This document shows, in pieces, positions 3,235 through 61,580 of a stretch of DNA of 63,067 nucleotides. The notes under the pieces were generated by a model. The model was not told the origin of the DNA, did not search any database, and was given only the letters and a program-made list of their open reading frames with translations. Position 1 is the stretch's first letter; every line of letters begins with the position of its first letter. The DNA comes from Geminocystis sp. M7585_C2015_104 (GTDB lineage Bacteria > Cyanobacteriota > Cyanobacteriia > Cyanobacteriales > Cyanobacteriaceae), in contig DVEF01000061.1 in the NCBI GenBank assembly GCA_015295805.1, forward strand, positions 1-63,067, given 5' to 3'. Made by a program: the position numbers and the translations under genes.

Positions 3235-5075
3235 TTTTGTGGGAATATCCCTATGCCATTATGAATCCTAGCCGCCGTTTCCGGGGAGCGGTCTATTATA
3301 GCTCCTCCTAAATACAATTGTGTTGAACTGCCTCCATCCAGGTTTAACGCCGACACTGCCCCCATTCTCCTCATTATCTCAGTCAATTCTAACAAATTAG
3401 GTCCTACCCCGCCAATCCGATTATGTACTGCTACTAACATAATCCGCCCTTGTTTGTCAACAGCTACCACACTACGAGAGGCTTTTTGATTAGCAAAGGC
3501 GGCGTTAAATTTCTCCATTTCTGGATTTAAGACAGCCCGATTATTTAATAGCAAAAGTGGCCCCGCCCCAACGATATAGGGATAGTTAATCAAGTTTTCT
3601 GGGATGGTGTTGGTTGTGATTGTTATCCTATCACCTATGGATATTTTATCCGCCATATTTTTGGCTTTTCTAAATACTAGTAGGTAGCCGTTTTCGGGGA
3701 TATTAACTGTTATGTCTCCGGCATTATTGCTGATTATTTTGTCTTCCACCCTGTCGTTTCTTACCACCACCACTATTTCTCCGTTGCTGAGAGGAGTGTA
3801 GCTATTTCCCCAACGAGGAGTATAACGGGCCAATCCTGATTGGATATAACCGCTGTTGATGTAGTAATTAGTCAGTTTATCTCCCCTCCCTATGCTAATT
3901 GTTTCCACTAGTTGAAGCCTGGAAAATTTAACACCACCCCTTTTGTCCCAGGCAAATACACCTCTGTTTAAGATTGGGCTAGATAACCATTCATTCTCGT
4001 ATTTAATCGCCCCCAAGGGAAGTTGGTTATTGCGATTGAAAAAGCCCCCGTTTATTCCTGCTATTATGCCCCAACTTTCTGCAAATCTTTTTAGGCTTTC
4101 CGTGCCAATTACTGTATTCTGATTAGGTAAAATCGGTGTTATTTTTAACTGGCTACTACGGGGGTTGATGGTAATATATGACACCAAAAAATAATCTGTG
4201 TTATTGTTAATGCCAACATATCTGCGACTGTAGAAAATGTCCCTATGCCAACTTATGTCCCGGGGGAAAATAGCGTCTTTTCTGATGTCCACTTGGAGGA
4301 CATTGTTGCTGGAAGTGGTTACCCTTAAGTTATGAAATTCCGGTAGATTGACAGATATAATAGTATTGTTTTCTTGGACAGAAATGGTAAATAACCCTCC
4401 CTTTTGTTGACTGTTATTATTGGTTTCATTCCCCTCCTCTTCTTTTATGGTAGAAACAGAGTCATCGGGAGATGGCGGTGGAGATATTAATTTTGGACTG
4501 GGCTGACTATTGATGATAGTGATAATACCGACTCCCCTCCCTTGGGTTACCTGGAAAAGGGCAGGCTGACTCAATTGAATTACGATTCTTCTTCCCCAAT
4601 TGTCTGCCGACTCATAAGCATCTTCAACTGTTGCTATTCCTGATTTTATTAGTAAGGTATTGTTAGCCTCTTCTAGGAAAATGGGGGAGTTTTTAAAGAT
4701 GTTGGTGACGTCGATGTAGCGGAAAGGCGGAACAAATTTAACGGGGATATTACCACTGAAATTAAACCAACTAACTGACTGAGTTTGTGGATTAAAACTG
4801 CTGTTCAACTCTATCCCTAATAACGACTCTGCCGCCATGTCTGCTAAGCCAAAGTGTTTCCCACTTCCATCTTGCCAGACCATCCAAGGAAGATTAATTC
4901 TCCTGTCACCAATTATCACCTCTTTTCCTTGTATTACCGGCTGATAATTCTGGGCATAAACCGGAGGAGATAGAAATAGGTTAAATCCATTGAATCCAGT
5001 GAGGAAACCGGAGATACTCAAACCCGTAAGAAACCACAGCAAAAACCTAAATCTAAATAATTTTCTCGTCAGCAT
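3231..5075 (-). CDS. Phosphodiester glycosidase family (NAGPA/DUF2233) exported protein
   Basis: A long exported protein. The chosen ATG at 5075 gives a signal peptide (basic MLTRKLFRFR, hydrophobic core, cleavage near VYAQ); an upstream GTG at 5111 would add 12 residues. The N-terminal half resembles envelope proteins with an AMIN-like strand region, and a Pro/Ser/Glu/Asn-rich linker lies near residues 200-230. The C-terminal half carries phosphodiester glycosidase hallmarks: GIIAGINGGFFNRNNQLPLG, a long strand region, and ALNLDGGSSTQLYLGG. The family removes or modifies sugar phosphodiesters in the envelope; the substrate here is unknown. It is transcribed towards, and overlaps by 4 bases, the phosphorothioation-associated gene. 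Confidence 0.8.
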   Translation of the reverse strand: MLTRKLFRFRFLLWFLTGLSISGFLTGFNGFNLFLSPPVYAQNYQPVIQGKEVIIGDRRINLPWMVWQDGSGKHFGLADMAAESLLGIELNSSFNPQTQSVSWFNFSGNIPVKFVPPFRYIDVTNIFKNSPIFLEEANNTLLIKSGIATVEDAYESADNWGRRIVIQLSQPALFQVTQGRGVGIITIINSQPSPKLISPPPSPDDSVSTIKEEEGNETNNNSQQKGGLFTISVQENNTIISVNLPEFHNLRVTTSSNNVLQVDIRKDAIFPRDISWHRDIFYSRRYVGINNNTDYFLVSYITINPRSSQLKITPILPNQNTVIGTESLKRFAESWGIIAGINGGFFNRNNQLPLGAIKYENEWLSSPILNRGVFAWDKRGGVKFSRLQLVETISIGRGDKLTNYYINSGYIQSGLARYTPRWGNSYTPLSNGEIVVVVRNDRVEDKIISNNAGDITVNIPENGYLLVFRKAKNMADKISIGDRITITTNTIPENLINYPYIVGAGPLLLLNNRAVLNPEMEKFNAAFANQKASRSVVAVDKQGRIMLVAVHNRIGGVGPNLLELTEIMRRMGAVSALNLDGGSSTQLYLGGAIIDRSPETAARIHNGIGIFPQN

Positions 5076-5210
5076 AATAACACAGGATAAGTTGGGGAAT
5101 ATTAAAAACACTACAATTTAAAAACAACAGAAAAGGGGGGGATATTGAAAATACAAACAAACCCCCGTCCTTTTTCAAGTTCAATACTTGGAATGAACAA
5201 AAAACACCTG

Positions 5211-5981
5211 TTAGAAATTATCCTTCATACCTCTTAAACGAGCAAAAACCCTCTCAGGTTCCTGCAAGCCTATGGTAGATTTTATGTTAGGGTCGTCCCA
5301 ACGTAAGAAGGGATTGGTCAACTTTTCCAAACCAATAGTAGAGGGGATGGTGGGGAGATTTTTTTTCCTATCCTCTACCACCTGTTGGTATCTTTGTCGT
5401 AGAATCTCATTGTGCCGGTCTACAGTAAGGGCGAACTGAAGATTCTTGAGAGTGTACTCATGGGCACACCAAACCCTAGTAGAATCGGGGAGACTCCTCA
5501 GCTTGTTCAAAGATTGTACCATCTGTGCAGGAGTCCCCTCGAACAAACGGCCACAGCCTCCGGCAAAAAGAGTGTCACCACAGAATAATTCCCCCTCCTC
5601 CCCCTCGGTGGGAGGGAAGTAGTATGCAATATGCCCCTTCGTGTGACCCGGTAGATGGTAAACATAGGCTTTTCTACCCCCAAATTCCACCGTGTCTCCC
5701 TCTTGCAAGAACACATCCTGACGTGGTATTCTCCCCTTATCCTCCCTGCCACCATACACAGTAGCCTGGGGGAATCTGGCCAACAACTCCTGGTTTCCAC
5801 CTACGTGATCCCAATGATGGTGAGTATTGAAAATGGCTATCAATTCTGCTCCTAGTTTGTCTATCTCTCTTAATACAGGCCTAGCTACAGAAGGGTCTAC
5901 TACAGCTACCTGTTTACTATGACTGTCGTACAACAAGAAGACGTAATTGTCACTCAATACCGGGATGGTAAGAATTTCCAT
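5211..5981 (-). CDS. gloB: Hydroxyacylglutathione hydrolase (glyoxalase II)
   Basis: A metallo-beta-lactamase fold enzyme of 256 residues, the usual size for glyoxalase II. The dinuclear metal site THHHWDHVGG starts at residue 53. Further metal ligands are visible in LPGHTKGHIAYY and LFCGDTLFAGGCGRLFEGT, and the substrate-binding CAHEYTLKNLQFA lies after residue 170. It hydrolyses S-lactoylglutathione to lactate and glutathione in the cytoplasm, the last step of methylglyoxal detoxification. It appears monocistronic. Confidence 0.93.
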   Translation of the reverse strand: MEILTIPVLSDNYVFLLYDSHSKQVAVVDPSVARPVLREIDKLGAELIAIFNTHHHWDHVGGNQELLARFPQATVYGGREDKGRIPRQDVFLQEGDTVEFGGRKAYVYHLPGHTKGHIAYYFPPTEGEEGELFCGDTLFAGGCGRLFEGTPAQMVQSLNKLRSLPDSTRVWCAHEYTLKNLQFALTVDRHNEILRQRYQQVVEDRKKNLPTIPSTIGLEKLTNPFLRWDDPNIKSTIGLQEPERVFARLRGMKDNF

Positions 5982-6078
5982 ATAAAATATCCCAAAAATC
6001 GCTATGGCATTCTATGAGTCATTGTAGTGTGAGCTTAAAAAGAGATGGATTAATTAACTAATTCCGAGGGGTGAAAGA

Positions 6079-6495
6079 CTATGGCTTGATGCCAGAAGAC
6101 ACTTTATGGTAGTATCTTTCCACCAGGATAATAGCAACAATGTCATCAATGGGGCGAGGGGGTATTCTTAAGCCGGGAGGGATAAGTCTGACTAATCCCC
6201 CAGGAGGATACATCTGCCAGTAGCGACTTCTAGCCTCCAAAGTTGTGTTTGTTTCATCCACTAATTCTAGGGGAATAGATAAACCTAACTCCTCTTTCAG
6301 CCGCTTTTGCCACTGTTTGGAAGTGGTTAGATTACCCATGACAATCCTTTCCAGGGGAAAGTGACGAGATAAGGCGGCAATGGTGGGAATCACCTCGTCA
6401 CTGGAGACCACTTGGTGATACAATGGGACAGAATTGGCATCTAAGACAGCTAAGCCACACTTGTCTCTGCCAGGATCAAATCCTAAAACTGCCAT
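6079..6495 (-). CDS. YqgF/RuvX-like RNase H-fold nuclease
   Basis: A 138-residue protein starting MAVLGFDPGRDKCGLAVLD, the N-terminal strand and acidic residue (Asp7) of the YqgF/RuvX RNase H fold. The motif IVMGNLTTSKQWQKRL matches the family's VVGNP-type loop, LVDETNTTLEAR carries the second acidic site, and the end has PIDDIVAIILVERY with paired aspartates. YqgF proteins mature 16S rRNA ends; cyanobacteria often carry a canonical YqgF and this diverged type, so the exact RNA or DNA substrate is uncertain. Confidence 0.75.
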   Translation of the reverse strand: MAVLGFDPGRDKCGLAVLDANSVPLYHQVVSSDEVIPTIAALSRHFPLERIVMGNLTTSKQWQKRLKEELGLSIPLELVDETNTTLEARSRYWQMYPPGGLVRLIPPGLRIPPRPIDDIVAIILVERYYHKVSSGIKP

Positions 6496-57635: not shown

Positions 57636-58022
57636 TTATTTTGCCCCTTCCTCACGGTTGTCGTTGCCGGCAGAAAAGTCCTCTTCCCCCGCTCTATCCA
57701 TCGCCCTCAAAGCCCTTTCAAATTGCATTCTCTGTTCCGCATTACGCAAGAAGTACCCGCTCATCATTGCTGACGCCAACAGTCTCCCCAGGTTTTCTCT
57801 ACTTGTGCTTACCACTACCCCGAAATGCTCGGAGGGCAGAGTACCTAACATTCCAATTATATTACGCTCCATGATTTGAAAAACCTCGGGGGTTTGTGGC
57901 TTCGACAACTGGCTTATAACCTCGGGGCTGAGGGATTGGATGTACTCCAACAGACTATTATGTTGTGTTTCTCCTTGGTAGAAGAATTTATTGGGATTAT
58001 TGCCAGTGTAGTTCATGTTCAT
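57636..58022 (-). CDS. DUF760 family protein
   Basis: A 128-residue protein from the ATG at 58022, which has AGGGGGAGTAGCT before it. It shows YIQSLSPEVISQLSKPQTPE, MERNIIGMLGTLPSEHFGVV and SRENLGRLLASAMMSGYFLR, the DUF760 pattern found in cyanobacteria and plastids. Soluble and helical with an acidic C-terminus. The plastid relatives are linked to protein turnover, but no role is proven here. Confidence 0.8.
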   Translation of the reverse strand: MNMNYTGNNPNKFFYQGETQHNSLLEYIQSLSPEVISQLSKPQTPEVFQIMERNIIGMLGTLPSEHFGVVVSTSRENLGRLLASAMMSGYFLRNAEQRMQFERALRAMDRAGEEDFSAGNDNREEGAK

Positions 58023-58163
58023 AGCTACTCCCCCTCTGTCTTTCCCAAATCCGCTCCTAGTTACAAGGTTAGCAATGAAAACGAGAACCTGACTTGGGTA
58101 AAACCGAACTGAAATTATCGTTTTTTCCTCCTTCCTCCCCCCCGCCAGTGGAGAAAACAAATC

Positions 58164-58478
58164 TCATTCTATTTCTGCTTTCATTCTCTCCAAAGTGCAG
58201 TGCAGTTGTTCAAAAACTTTTTCCAGCGTCATGCCAAACTGACCCAAATTTGTCTTTAATTGTTCGATAGCCATCCTGGCCATAAAGTCATCTGACAATT
58301 CAAAACGCTTCATAAAAATCCTATAACGCTCCATTACTTCTTCCATTTTCTCTATGAAAATCTTCTTGCCTTCCCGATCAAATTTGCCATAGTTGGCCCC
58401 CAATTTTATGAGGGCTTGATAATCCTCAAACAACTTTTTGGCCTCTTGTTGTACTACCTCTGAATCGAAAAATCCCAT
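58164..58478 (-). CDS. DUF1825 family protein
   Basis: A 104-residue, all-helical, charged cytoplasmic protein: MGFFDSEVVQQEAKKLFEDY, QALIKLGANYGKFDREGKKI and EQLKTNLGQFGMTLEKVFEQ. The pattern matches cyanobacterial DUF1825, of unknown function. It leads a same-strand series with the DUF760 and DUF427 genes. Confidence 0.82.
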   Translation of the reverse strand: MGFFDSEVVQQEAKKLFEDYQALIKLGANYGKFDREGKKIFIEKMEEVMERYRIFMKRFELSDDFMARMAIEQLKTNLGQFGMTLEKVFEQLHCTLERMKAEIE

Positions 58479-58587
58479 AACTACCCCTTATTCACCAGTA
58501 CTAATAAGTCGCAGTCCGGCCTACATTTCTATTATAAAATTGTCAATATCATTTTCCCACATACGGATTCCCGAAAACTACAAAAAC

Positions 58588-58950
58588 ATGTCACCCCTTC
58601 ATGGCAAAAAAAAATTAATTGCCATCATCCTAGCCCTTTTGGGCACTGCCACACCCCTTAGCGGTTTACACAAATTTTATCTCGGCCAGCCCCTCTGGGG
58701 TGTCATTTATCTACTCTTAGCTTGGCAAACCCCCATGGTTCGTATTGCCTGTGCCATTGACATTGTAATCTATCTTTTGTATCCCCTGAGTCTTTTTCCC
58801 GCCAACAAAAATTATTCTTCCTCCCGGATAACAGAAGCCTCTCAGATAACAGAAGTAGCCAACGCCATTAGGGAATTGGAAAGACTACGTCAAGAGGGTT
58901 TGATTTCCGAATACGAGTTTGAGCAAAAACGTCGTCAGCTACTCCAGTAG
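58588..58950 (+). CDS. TM2-like membrane protein with SHOCT end
   Basis: From the ATG at 58588 the protein is 120 residues. Two hydrophobic helices (about 9-30 and 40-70) include the TM2-type phrase GLHKFYLGQPLWGVIYLL. The C-terminus LERLRQEGLISEYEFEQKRR is a SHOCT-like short helical module, often found at protein ends for oligomerisation. The earlier part of the frame (from 58438) is not protein-like. Function unknown. It converges with the ExbB/ExbD-like operon. Confidence 0.7.
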   Translation: MSPLHGKKKLIAIILALLGTATPLSGLHKFYLGQPLWGVIYLLLAWQTPMVRIACAIDIVIYLLYPLSLFPANKNYSSSRITEASQITEVANAIRELERLRQEGLISEYEFEQKRRQLLQ

Positions 58951-58977: not shown

Positions 58978-59676
58978 TTATTGTACCCCTACCTCCCGTC
59001 CACCACTGCCAAACACCAGTACACTATCATACTCTAGTGGCTCCCATCCTACATCAAAACCTAAATTCCACGCCGTTTGTCTTGCCTTTCTAAACACCCG
59101 AAAACTGTCAGGTCTAACTATGAATGCAATGTAATTCTCCCTAGGATTCAATTGCTTTAAAAAATTGACAAACTCCTCTATTGTTTCTCCACTCACATCC
59201 TTCCTCGGTTGAAAAACTATGCCCCCATTCTCCCCAATAGTTACAATATATTTTCCGTTGTCCACATAGAAGTTTTTTATCCTCTCTAGCCTGCTGTTCA
59301 TACATAGTTGATATTCCTGGGCCTTTCTGAGATAATATTCGTACATATACTCAGGGGTATCCCGACCAATTTCTGGCATTTCACAGGAGGGGAGACTGGC
59401 TATAAGTTCGTCTATTTTTTCCTCAATTTCCGGGGCACTTATTAAAAACACTTGGTTATTCCTCAGCTCAAAAAATTTTGGGGTTTTACTGGTTTCTTTT
59501 CGCAGAGGCGTGCGAATTGTCCTCCCCGATTCCACTGCTAACAGACTTACAAAAAGCCCGATAAACATCAGAACTCCTACTGTGTTTGTTAAAATGTCCA
59601 GAAAGGAATCTAAATTCTGACTCGGTTTTTCTATTTTCCTACTCTTTCTATCTCTCATAAATCTCCAGGTTGCCAC
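58978..59676 (-). CDS. ExbD/TolR-like protein B, keeps membrane Asp
   Basis: A 232-residue bitopic protein. A basic N-terminus leads into one membrane helix (about 24-48) with NLDSFLDILTNTVGVLMFIG; Asp27 sits where ExbD/TolR/MotB carry their proton-pathway Asp. A periplasmic region follows, and the C-terminal domain (about 140-225) has ENYIAFIVRPDSFRVFRKAR and LGFDVGWEPLEYDSVLVFG. The same pattern occurs in the neighbouring protein. It lies 4 bases after that gene in the operon. It probably forms an ion-driven complex with the ExbB-like protein. Confidence 0.75.
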   Translation of the reverse strand: MATWRFMRDRKSRKIEKPSQNLDSFLDILTNTVGVLMFIGLFVSLLAVESGRTIRTPLRKETSKTPKFFELRNNQVFLISAPEIEEKIDELIASLPSCEMPEIGRDTPEYMYEYYLRKAQEYQLCMNSRLERIKNFYVDNGKYIVTIGENGGIVFQPRKDVSGETIEEFVNFLKQLNPRENYIAFIVRPDSFRVFRKARQTAWNLGFDVGWEPLEYDSVLVFGSGGREVGVQ

Positions 59677-59680
59677 TATT

Positions 59681-60133
59681 TTATCTTATGTTTAGTTTCC
59701 AATCTTCATCAATTGGCTCGTAGCCTATATCCACTTTTTCCCTTTCAATTATATCCCTCACTTTTTGAAAAACTCCTATCCCCTTTGGCCTTACTGCCAC
59801 TATAATGTACTCCTTCTCCCTGTTCAATTTCACCTCGTTGATGAGTCTTAACAAGGCAGAATCAGGAGTATTTAAGCTACTAACGGGAACGAATTTTCCA
59901 CTAGGGTAAACCACAACTCCATTTTCCCGACACTCAATATATCGAGGGTTTTTTCTCTGGTTATTTCCCACCTCGGCTTTGGCAATAATGGTTACCTGTG
60001 GGCCACTGCTAAGGGTTTGACTGCTGATAACTATAATAAGCAGAATTAAACTGCCAATAGTGCAGGCCAAAACTGACAAAAAGGGGAATAACTCCAATTC
60101 GGCTTTTTGGTAGTTTCTTTTCCTCCTAGCCAT
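59681..60133 (-). CDS. ExbD/TolR-like protein A, lacks membrane Asp
   Basis: A 150-residue bitopic protein: basic N-terminus MARRKRNYQKAELELFPFLS, then one membrane helix (about 16-38, VLACTIGSLILLIIVIS). In ExbD-type alignment the aspartate is replaced by Ser20. The periplasmic part has ECRENGVVVYPSGKFVPVSS and the C-terminal EYIIVAVRPKGIGVFQKVRD followed by VDIGYEPIDEDWKLNI. It is the middle gene of the three-gene operon, 7 bases after the ExbB-like gene. Confidence 0.72.
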   Translation of the reverse strand: MARRKRNYQKAELELFPFLSVLACTIGSLILLIIVISSQTLSSGPQVTIIAKAEVGNNQRKNPRYIECRENGVVVYPSGKFVPVSSLNTPDSALLRLINEVKLNREKEYIIVAVRPKGIGVFQKVRDIIEREKVDIGYEPIDEDWKLNIR

Positions 60134-60140
60134 GGCAATA

Positions 60141-61580
60141 TTACTTCTCGATTTGTTCCACCAAACGGATAACCCTGGGTTTACTTAACTCCTGTAATGT
60201 AGGTTTTAATCCCTCGATTTTTTCCTCTAGGCTTGCCATAGTCTTATGGATGTCATCCAAGTATTTTAGCAGGTCGACTATTTGTTCTAAACTAGTCTTC
60301 AGAGACTGTAACTTGGCAATCTTATTACTAGCCTCTTGTAGGGATGCTATCCTTTCCCCAAGGTTTTCTGAAATCTGATTTAGCTGGTTGACAATGTTTT
60401 GAGAGGCATGAATTAACTCCTGACTGTTCGTCCGATGACTTTCTCTCATTAAATCCACTAGTTTTTCAATCTTGTTGGCTACTGAATCGCTGATATAATT
60501 CTGGTGGTTAATAGTTTCTAAAAATTTGGCTCTATCGGCTATAATAGTGCCGTTTATATCCCTTATAGACTCCAGCAACAATTGCTCTTGATGGTGAATA
60601 CTTTGAAATTGTTCTACAAGTTTATCCACTAGATTTTTAGCTGCTTCTTGAGCATACTTCTCCGCTGGGGATACCAACTCCTCAACTGTAGGCAATGCTT
60701 GTTTGACACTGGCAATTAACTCCTCTTTTTTGGGCAGGTTTTTATCTAGAGTATCTGTGATGGTGTTGACAATCAACTGAGTATTAAAAGGGGCATTTTC
60801 TGCCCCAGAGTTTTCCTGTAAAAGGGGCAAAACACAGTCATTGATAAAAATATCCACGGCTAGGAGTAAGTTCGACTCCATTTTCTCCACTAATACCAAG
60901 GGAATCATCACAGCCACACTTAATAGTAGAGCTAACAGCGTAGTATCAAAAGCGACAGCAAGGCCACTGGTGACGGCACTAATCCCCTCTTTGATTTGTT
61001 CAACATCGGCGGTATTGTCAAGAAAACCGGTGAAGCCACTAACAGCGCTACTAATGCCTAATACTGTACCAATAAAACCCAATAGGGGAATAGCCCATAC
61101 TAGAATTCTAGGAACTGCATAAGAGGCCTCGGAGGCGCTAAGATAAAAGGAGGAATCGTCTAGGGCGAAGTCCGTGACGGCTTTACGACTACCAGACTCG
61201 ACATAGGCTGCAACGATTCTCCCCAGACGATTCGTCACCATGGTGTTGATGTCATATAAATCCTCCCGCAGCCGTAGTAATTGTACTGATTTGTGATTGC
61301 GAAAGGAGAATTGTTCTATTTCAGTTTCTAGATTTTTTAATATTCTTTTTTCCCGGCTAACTTTGAGGTATTTATCTATAGTAATTGCCACCACCAAAAA
61401 GGCACAAAAAACAGTGAGAGGTTGGGTAAATCCTCGCTCCAATAACAGGGAACCAATATAGCTATCTTTTGAAAAACCATATATGAGGATGTAGAGGAGA
61501 AAACTAGCTGCTAGCGCCCCAGATATTGTAGCAAAAAAGTTGGTGTCTAACTCCTGACGTTTATTCTTTTTTTGAATCAT
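60141..61580 (-). CDS. MotA/TolQ/ExbB-type channel with coiled-coil tail
   Basis: A 479-residue membrane protein. Four helices are seen at about residues 15-36, 52-70, 157-182 and 203-231. Helices 3 and 4 carry the family signature (PLLGFIGTVLGISSAVSGF; GLAVAFDTTLLALLLSVAVM). A long soluble tail (about 240-479) is helical and coiled-coil rich, with EKIEKLVDLMRES-like heptads and ending VIRLVEQIEK. Typical ExbB/TolQ proteins are about 230 residues and lack such a tail; the tail recalls ZorA. It probably drives two ExbD-like partners with ion flow. First gene of a three-gene operon. Confidence 0.78.
   Translation of the reverse strand: MIQKKNKRQELDTNFFATISGALAASFLLYILIYGFSKDSYIGSLLLERGFTQPLTVFCAFLVVAITIDKYLKVSREKRILKNLETEIEQFSFRNHKSVQLLRLREDLYDINTMVTNRLGRIVAAYVESGSRKAVTDFALDDSSFYLSASEASYAVPRILVWAIPLLGFIGTVLGISSAVSGFTGFLDNTADVEQIKEGISAVTSGLAVAFDTTLLALLLSVAVMIPLVLVEKMESNLLLAVDIFINDCVLPLLQENSGAENAPFNTQLIVNTITDTLDKNLPKKEELIASVKQALPTVEELVSPAEKYAQEAAKNLVDKLVEQFQSIHHQEQLLLESIRDINGTIIADRAKFLETINHQNYISDSVANKIEKLVDLMRESHRTNSQELIHASQNIVNQLNQISENLGERIASLQEASNKIAKLQSLKTSLEQIVDLLKYLDDIHKTMASLEEKIEGLKPTLQELSKPRVIRLVEQIEK

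Follow-up and report, generated by a model that had tools for sequence, protein, structure and literature searches.

ExbB and TolQ are ring proteins with three transmembrane segments and no tail, and each is accompanied by one rod gene. In the rotary models of MotAB and ExbBD, as given in an excerpt of PMC12215075, the axle turns 36 degrees per ion, and the channel alternates between two essential Asp residues. A gene set of one channel and two rods is not new as such, the precedent being AglRQS, the gliding motor of Myxococcus xanthus, in which one TolQ/MotA-type gene stands beside two different TolR/ExbD-type genes. The same arrangement was studied here in the window, that is, the whole analysed stretch of 63,067 nucleotides from Geminocystis sp. 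M7585_C2015_104 (contig DVEF01000061.1). The locus consists of an ExbB-like ring gene (B) and the rod genes D1 and D2, together called the trio. What is new is the asymmetry of the rods: judging from the aligned sequences, one rod usually keeps the Asp presumed to carry the ion, and the other mostly has Ser. The original prediction, made from the letters of the window, missed this asymmetry, D1 having mostly lost the Asp. The features of the trio are located in the window as follows.

60141..61580, minus strand: exbB-like ring gene, 479 amino acids; four hydrophobic segments and a ~240-residue tail, end KPRVIRLVEQIEK
60945..60947, minus strand: codon of Asp212 of the ring protein (AFDTT, fourth hydrophobic segment), invariant in 73/73 homologues
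59681..60133, minus strand: D1 rod gene, 150 amino acids; one membrane helix (LFPFLSVLACTIG) and a predicted TolR/ExbD-like periplasmic domain
60074..60076, minus strand: codon of Ser20 of D1, opposite the ion-carrying Asp of D2 in the D1-D2 profile alignment
58978..59676, minus strand: D2 rod gene, 232 amino acids as called (GTG); one membrane helix (LDSFLDILTNTVG) and a predicted TolR/ExbD-like domain
59596..59598, minus strand: codon of Asp27, the carboxylate that D2 has retained and that presumably binds the ion; Asp in 73/74 distinct D2 proteins

In the following, genomes are labelled G (the window genome is G000), stretches L, family groups f (f1 is the family of the window genome) and contigs of the window genome C.

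The presumed ion-carrying position of the two rods

Comparison of the D1 and D2 profiles with hhalign gave an E value of 7.3e-14 over 140 columns, with Ser20 facing Asp27; on this similarity, the two rods are paralogues. The only D2 protein that deviated at this position carried Ala and came from G104. Among 76 distinct D1 proteins, the same position was occupied by Ser in 69, Asp in four, Asn in one and Ala in one, and one protein was truncated. D1 with Ser spanned 13 cyanobacterial family groups, and the sequence of the D1 membrane helix was nearly invariant. When ExbD was aligned with D1, the invariant Asp of cyanobacterial ExbD also fell on Ser20, in a comparison that was not significant.

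All four Asp-bearing D1 proteins belonged to family f19, where they were found on two branches of the ring-protein tree, and their membrane helix was D2-like. At L183, the helix-coding DNA of D1 and D2 was 75% identical, compared with a mean of 62% (standard deviation 4) over 65 pairs. From these sequences, the Asp-bearing cases are read as copies of the D2 helix introduced into D1. Because a D2-like helix replaced the D1 helix, it is suggested that the two helices can fill equivalent places, and because Asp-bearing D1 proteins exist, the Ser of D1 is not indispensable. In G104 (L129, 9233-9961, and L130, 7851-9837), both D1 and D2 lacked the carboxylate and the conserved helix motif, and the ring gene was open; this system is possibly inactive or repurposed.

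Each rod carries a single N-terminal hydrophobic helix, which agrees with their earlier description as bitopic proteins. The flank preceding the helix of D1 was positive (five Lys/Arg versus none). The flanks of D2 did not discriminate (three versus four Lys/Arg), and for this reason the orientation of D2 rests on homology. Relative to D1, the D2 domain contains an insert with two conserved Cys residues (98 and 125). Scans with Pfam and NCBIfam gave no match of note for D1 or D2, and PDB sequence searches yielded no meaningful relative of either. The atypical D1 of L193 matched the Pfam ExbD family (PF02472) weakly, with an E value of 0.06.

The folds of the rods were predicted with AlphaFold2 as single chains from four alignment rows. 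The predicted local distance difference test score (pLDDT) was about 90 for the periplasmic domain of D1 (residues 61-140) and mostly 70 to 90 for the domain of D2. In structural comparison with VIA, in which a Z score under 8 may mean merely a common arrangement, the top matches of the D1 domain were TolR (8.5) and ExbD (7.4, 7.0 and 6.8), and the top four of the D2 domain were TolR (6.3) and ExbD (6.2, 5.5 and 5.2). Because two separate models agreed on TolR and ExbD, it may be argued that both periplasmic domains are TolR/ExbD-like in the predicted models; this is their best match, and each match is moderate alone.

Ring protein, occurrence and descent

The hydropathy windows of the ring protein formed four groups (about 15-33, 50-72, 152-187 and 213-242), which were followed by roughly 240 tail residues, and Pfam MotA_ExbB (PF01618) matched with 28.1 bits at a cut-off of 22.9. 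The four-helix MotA/TolQ/ExbB-type protein with a ~240-residue tail that had been predicted was thereby recovered. Residues P165, G168, T172, G175, D212, T213, T214 and S221 were invariant in all 73 ring proteins compared. T172 and T214 presumably match the Ser/Thr ring positions of ExbB, as far as can be judged by eye. D212 is an extra carboxylate immediately before T213-T214, and in a pentamer it would form a ring of five carboxylates.

The tail appears from its sequence to be a coiled coil; the ring profile had 38 matches among PDB sequences, which covered the tail region and were helical or of coiled-coil type. Tail length in unsplit frames ranged between about 106 and 320 residues. Close to the C-terminus, 67 of the 73 homologues have a PRx[ILVM]-type motif, and this conserved peptide suggests a binding partner for the tail. 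That short tails might end in a membrane helix was considered and dropped, since this held for 1/73 only.

To survey the phylum, 291 genomes were searched with the ring profile at an E value threshold of 1e-30 and with the D1 and D2 profiles at 1e-5. The ring protein and D1 were each found in 22 genomes and D2 in 23, and the genome lists were identical apart from G078 (L096), in which a 53-residue D2 scrap with a stop was the sole remnant of the trio. In family f1, the ring protein was present in 14 of 15 genomes, including that of the window, and the genome lacking it was 67% complete. A ring-protein search of 40 relatives gave 19 matches, and in Cyanobacteriales 78 of 387 genomes, from 36 of 145 genera, had the protein.

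The order B-D1-D2 was observed in 62 of 85 stretches, including the window, with median gaps of 17 and 17 bases. The rest comprised one stretch with a split ring gene, seven with the ring gene and D1, four with the ring gene alone, three with D1 alone and eight with D2 alone; many of the incomplete stretches were from unlinked genomes or ended at contig ends, and some of the 85 were second stretches from one genome. Ring matches below 80 bits were not used for the order count, nor those below 150 bits for the tree and residue counts. L214, which equals L176, was left out; L223, L225 and L226, which repeat the contigs of L025, L024 and L023, all have B-D1-D2; they do not enter the order count or the 73 ring rows but are included in the D1 and D2 residue counts.

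In several genomes the genes were unlinked: D2 lay apart from the ring gene and D1 in G004, G005, G007, G008 and G104 and on another contig in G391 and G466, and all three genes lay apart in the four f36 genomes and in G006. When rods that were missing from a stretch were looked for elsewhere in the genome or rechecked, D2 was found in 7/7 and D1 in 3/3 genomes. Because the order B-D1-D2 recurred in 62/85 stretches and the three profiles had the same genome list, the adjacency is not due to chance, and the trio is a conserved cyanobacterial unit. The search of cyanobacterial genomes that had been proposed with the original prediction thus found the three profiles together in 22/291 genomes, also where the genes are unlinked. 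The central idea of that prediction, a dedicated unit of one channel protein and two distinct rods, is upheld by the co-occurrence, the conserved order and the TolR/ExbD-like predicted folds.

The tree of 76 ring proteins largely followed families, with 15 label changes for 15 groups, the minimum being 14. Of eight families with at least two rows, four formed one side of a branch and four needed two changes. Branch support was given by the Shimodaira-Hasegawa-like approximate likelihood ratio test (SH-aLRT) only, and several rows had long branches. Because the tree largely follows families, the history of the trio fits vertical descent with loss.

Several loci deserve separate mention. G319 (L184/L198), G332 (L185/L220) and G458 (L186/L188) have two trios each, one of the ring proteins being about 371-375 amino acids long with a short tail. 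Decaying copies were seen at L124 (G191), with a truncated ring gene and a stop in D1, and at L221 (G342), with a split ring gene. L024 is recorded as Candidatus Gracilibacteria SU_1_2; it looks cyanobacterial, and its trio resembles that of Hydrococcus.

The three open reading frames (ORFs) of the trio in the window are adjacent minus-strand frames separated by 7 and 4 bases, in agreement with the original statement. The GTG start called for D2 is probably 18 bases too early, with the true start at the ATG at 59658, because homologues start there; the second gap would then be ~22 bases. A promoter scan gave 11 sites versus 6.3 (standard deviation 2.9) in shuffled sequences and was not used as evidence. 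Directly behind D2, a convergent gene (58438-58950) encodes a TM2 + SHOCT domain protein, which was also found near the trio in L105 and L108, and two small genes at 57636-58478 carry DUF760 and DUF1825.

Neighbours were compared over 1099 ORFs of the 85 stretches, where 50 clusters with at least three loci were examined and most were not annotated. A LapA-domain gene was found behind the trio, in the same orientation, in 17 loci, all in f19 (27 tree rows), at a median of 77 bp (range -9 to 874 bases); in the window genome, LapA-domain genes are on other contigs. A Uma2-family gene was near the trio in six loci (median 190 bp). The close three-locus clusters were mostly confined to one genus or family: TM2-SHOCT and purK-like genes (f1), GatC- and HisF-like genes (f36) and a Cmr/CARF cassette. 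Larger clusters lay kilobases off and were judged by reading their sequences to be due to chance.

A candidate motor and its alternatives

With moderate confidence, the trio is taken to encode an ion-driven ExbB5-type inner-membrane motor with a D1-D2 axle that bears one carboxylate, serving an envelope role and having a mobile branch in defence islands. Five ExbB-like copies would form the ring. The axle would consist of one D1 and one D2, with periplasmic domains reaching toward the cell wall; in analogy to the solved 5:2 motors, the ring and the pair of axle helices would rotate relative to each other. The heterodimer, the 5:2 stoichiometry, the flow of ions and the bundling of the tails are all inferred, and both rods would lie within one complex. 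D2 alone would supply the membrane Asp, so that both the passage of ions and the stepping would depend on one carboxylate in the axle, possibly aided by the Asp212 ring. D1 would be a passive partner that makes the axle complete and provides a further periplasmic contact unlike that of D2. The tails, which have a conserved C-terminal peptide, would be bundled in the cytoplasm and transmit motion or a signal to a partner there, an idea also put forward for the tail of ZorA.

With a one-Asp axle, the alternation between two Asp residues must change, either to one ion per 72 degrees or by help from the ring. According to the excerpt of PMC4030992, proton flow that is lost with the MotB Asp returns when MotA is given an Asp; because of this rescue, it might be speculated that the D212 ring carboxylate shares the ion-handling work. 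A more far-reaching possibility, put forward tentatively, is that the D1-D2 axle with one Asp and one Ser makes a natural single-carboxylate rotary motor, which would move in fewer and larger steps per turn (e.g. five of 72 degrees) or rely on the Asp212 ring instead, and that the mobile branch serves as the membrane module in type III CRISPR/CD-NTase loci. The unequal rod pair, kept in 13 family groups, makes it possible to test directly whether a motor of this kind needs two carboxylates; if the proposal is true, this is a one-handed version of a motor assumed to need two hands. Beyond this, cyanobacteria gain an envelope machine that is so far uncharacterised, and motors of this type may be linked to CRISPR/CBASS loci.

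Several observations count against the favoured motor. Four of the 76 D1 proteins carry Asp and the D2 of G104 has lost it, which means that the rule of exactly one Asp has exceptions. In profile comparison with 20 cyanobacterial ExbD proteins, D1 gave an insignificant result (probability 5.9) and D2 no alignment. PF02472 matched neither rod and was found in the window genome only on contig C79. The original description of the rods as ExbD/TolR-like stands for the predicted folds, which rank TolR and ExbD first, but not for this Pfam family. The Z scores were moderate: only that of D1 with TolR exceeded 8, the lower ExbD rows of D1 tied with the unrelated YqgF (6.7), and those of D2 with an unrelated retron chain (4.9). 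With Foldseek alone, the E values for D1 were 0.01 or worse; ribosomal chains came first and ExbD was at rank 4. The tail was only about 106 residues long in some loci, which means that a long tail is not always needed, and at L109 it ended in a hydrophobic segment. Finally, the models were of single chains only, and D1 and D2 could form separate homodimers.

Of the other explanations, a Zorya-like anti-phage device was considered, in which the ring and the rods would detect damage to the envelope and the tail would pass a signal to a nuclease or to CRISPR/CBASS machinery nearby. The long tail is as in ZorA, and the branch of f27 and Microcystis, which is the exception to vertical descent, has closely similar copies in different families. 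The plasmid copy of Microcystis aeruginosa NIES-2481 (L175) is sister to that of G080 (f27) with an SH-aLRT of 100 and short branches. The copy of Anabaena cylindrica PCC 7122 is on plasmid pANACY.03, L175 and L176 are plasmids, and relaxase and TraL-like genes lie near the copy of L115 (G102). In L115, L118 and L176, which are from G102, G168 and Anabaena, type III-B Cmr and CARF-HEPN genes end about 80-130 bp before the start of the trio, the cmr genes of G168 having been identified through homology to those of Anabaena and G102. In L175, genes for a type IIG enzyme, a CD-NTase, a SLATT effector and an SNF2 helicase form a cluster, and the trio begins 150 bp behind it; in L119 (G080) a CARF-RelE gene lies about 5 kb upstream.

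However, adjacent contexts of this kind numbered four among the 85 stretches, whose neighbours were partly annotated, and one cassette accounts for three of them. Defence genes are often abundant on plasmids of cyanobacteria, which also speaks against this explanation, as do the persistence of the genes where they are unlinked, the tree that largely follows families and the lack of CARF or another ligand domain in the trio. For the f27 copies of G096 and G173, no defence-type neighbour was recognised on reading the stretch, without a family scan. The defence-adjacent cases amount to two independent contexts, the first of which spread as one cassette, and a functional tie is possible. That the trio as a whole is an anti-phage device is fairly unlikely; most likely, it serves the envelope and has been inherited mainly vertically, and a mobile branch either works in defence islands or moves along with them. 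The original prediction, which saw no known defence type implied, holds for the window, but on plasmids or mobile DNA of other cyanobacteria the trio adjoins type III-B CRISPR and CARF-HEPN genes or a cluster with a CD-NTase. A phage origin was rejected, as scans of viral contigs with the three profiles confirmed no relative.

It is unlikely that two alternative homodimer axles share one ring, with D2-D2 as the active motor and D1-D1 as an inactive or regulatory form. Both rods are complete bitopic proteins with predicted domains like those of TolR and ExbD, families that form homodimers, and for AglQ and AglS the excerpt of PMC9389320 states that it is not known whether they form hetero- or homodimers, so the same question stands there. 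On the other hand, every ring-bearing genome of the phylum survey (22/291) has both rods, even unlinked, and the helix replacement in four D1 proteins suggests equivalence rather than alternatives. A role of D1 outside the axle, as an assembly factor or plug for an ExbB5-D2 motor, would explain why Asp was lost in most D1 proteins (69 Ser/76); it is improbable, since D1 keeps a nearly invariant membrane helix and a TolR/ExbD-like predicted domain. An orphan ExbBD set energising TonB-dependent uptake is highly improbable: the genome does encode a TonB_C protein, but a canonical ExbB-ExbD pair is present on C79, D1 and D2 differ strongly from ExbD, and no recurrent neighbour was recognised as TonB or TolA among the 1099 ORFs, most of them without annotation. 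The absence of tonB near the trio had been noted before and was confirmed, the only TonB_C match of the genome being on another contig (C93); tolA, tolB and pal were not searched for.

Comparison with known systems

The motor proposed above differs from AglRQS in several respects. AglQ and AglS both have a conserved mid-membrane Asp according to the excerpt of PMC9389320, whereas D1 has Ser in the window; Asp on both rods, as in AglRQS, was found with 4/76 D1 proteins, all outside the window. AglQ and AglS both match Pfam ExbD, unlike D1 and D2, and AglRQS is tied to Glt proteins. According to the excerpt of PMC3169522, AglR has 245 amino acids and so no long tail.

The OmpA-type domain is the peptidoglycan-binding domain of ZorB. 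With ZorAB, the trio shares a MotA-type ring, a long cytoplasmic tail and single-pass rods (excerpt of PMC11890865). ZorAB has one rod gene, both copies of its product bearing Asp and a peptidoglycan-binding domain, whereas the trio has two rod genes and TolR-like predicted domains. The ring protein scored 32.5 bits against NCBIfam NF033915 (ZorA), for which the cut-off is 100, and its best PADLOC ZorA match had 34.3 bits with a best stretch of 59 residues. D1 and D2 gave no OmpA or ZorB match in Pfam and PADLOC. No Zorya effector (ZorC/D/E) was recognised among recurrent neighbours, PADLOC having covered the three trio proteins and one neighbour only. Identity with Zorya was ruled out by the ZorA score, the rod domain and the number of rods. 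The window genome has a separate pair of this type on contig C10 (L171): a ZorA-like gene at 3987-5564 (525 amino acids) is followed by a ZorB-like gene at 5578-6225 with an OmpA domain and a weak MotB-plug match. This pair lies between psaB and a coproporphyrinogen-oxidase-like gene, both named by reading, and no ZorC/D/E was recognised, which makes it an orphan pair.

ExbBD and TolQR share with the trio the ring family, the Ser/Thr ring positions (by eye) and the predicted periplasmic fold of D1 and, with lower scores, of D2. The trio differs in its tail, its two rod genes, the failure of Pfam ExbD to match D1 and D2, and a membrane Asp that is on D2 but not on most D1 proteins. A canonical ExbBD set was rejected because the genome has its own ExbB-ExbD pair on C79 and the rods fail PF02472.

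A distant relative from outside the cyanobacteria is on a plasmid of the alphaproteobacterium Sagittula stellata (L228, 4512-6490), where a ring protein with AFDTT was found by tblastn (4e-5; 49 bits to ring profile A1). Its gene is followed by those for proteins of 136 and 223 amino acids, each with one N-terminal hydrophobic stretch, amid hypothetical genes. Unlike the trio, this set has no tail and has Asp at the helix start in both small proteins, whose similarity to D1 and D2 was not significant. The AFDTT motif is thus present although both small proteins carry Asp, which bears on the speculation about D212.

The trio was also compared with ancillary effectors of type III CRISPR. It lies beside Cas10/Cmr genes in 3/85 stretches (L115, L118 and L176), the window not being among them, and Pfam, PADLOC and NCBIfam scans of the three window proteins gave no CARF, SAVED or other nucleotide-binding domain. 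Some known membrane effectors of type III CRISPR use other sensor domains, as stated in the excerpt of PMC11229360; the main text of this effector survey has no ExbB or MotA. In the open-access literature, covered by titles and abstract openings, nothing was found on the cyanobacterial trio or on a rod pair with one Asp.

The trio is set apart from AglRQS because it does not have Asp on both rods and from ZorAB because it has neither an OmpA-type rod nor the ZorA score. It is best called a member of the broad MotA/TolQ/ExbB kind that is neither Zorya, canonical ExbBD nor AglRQS.

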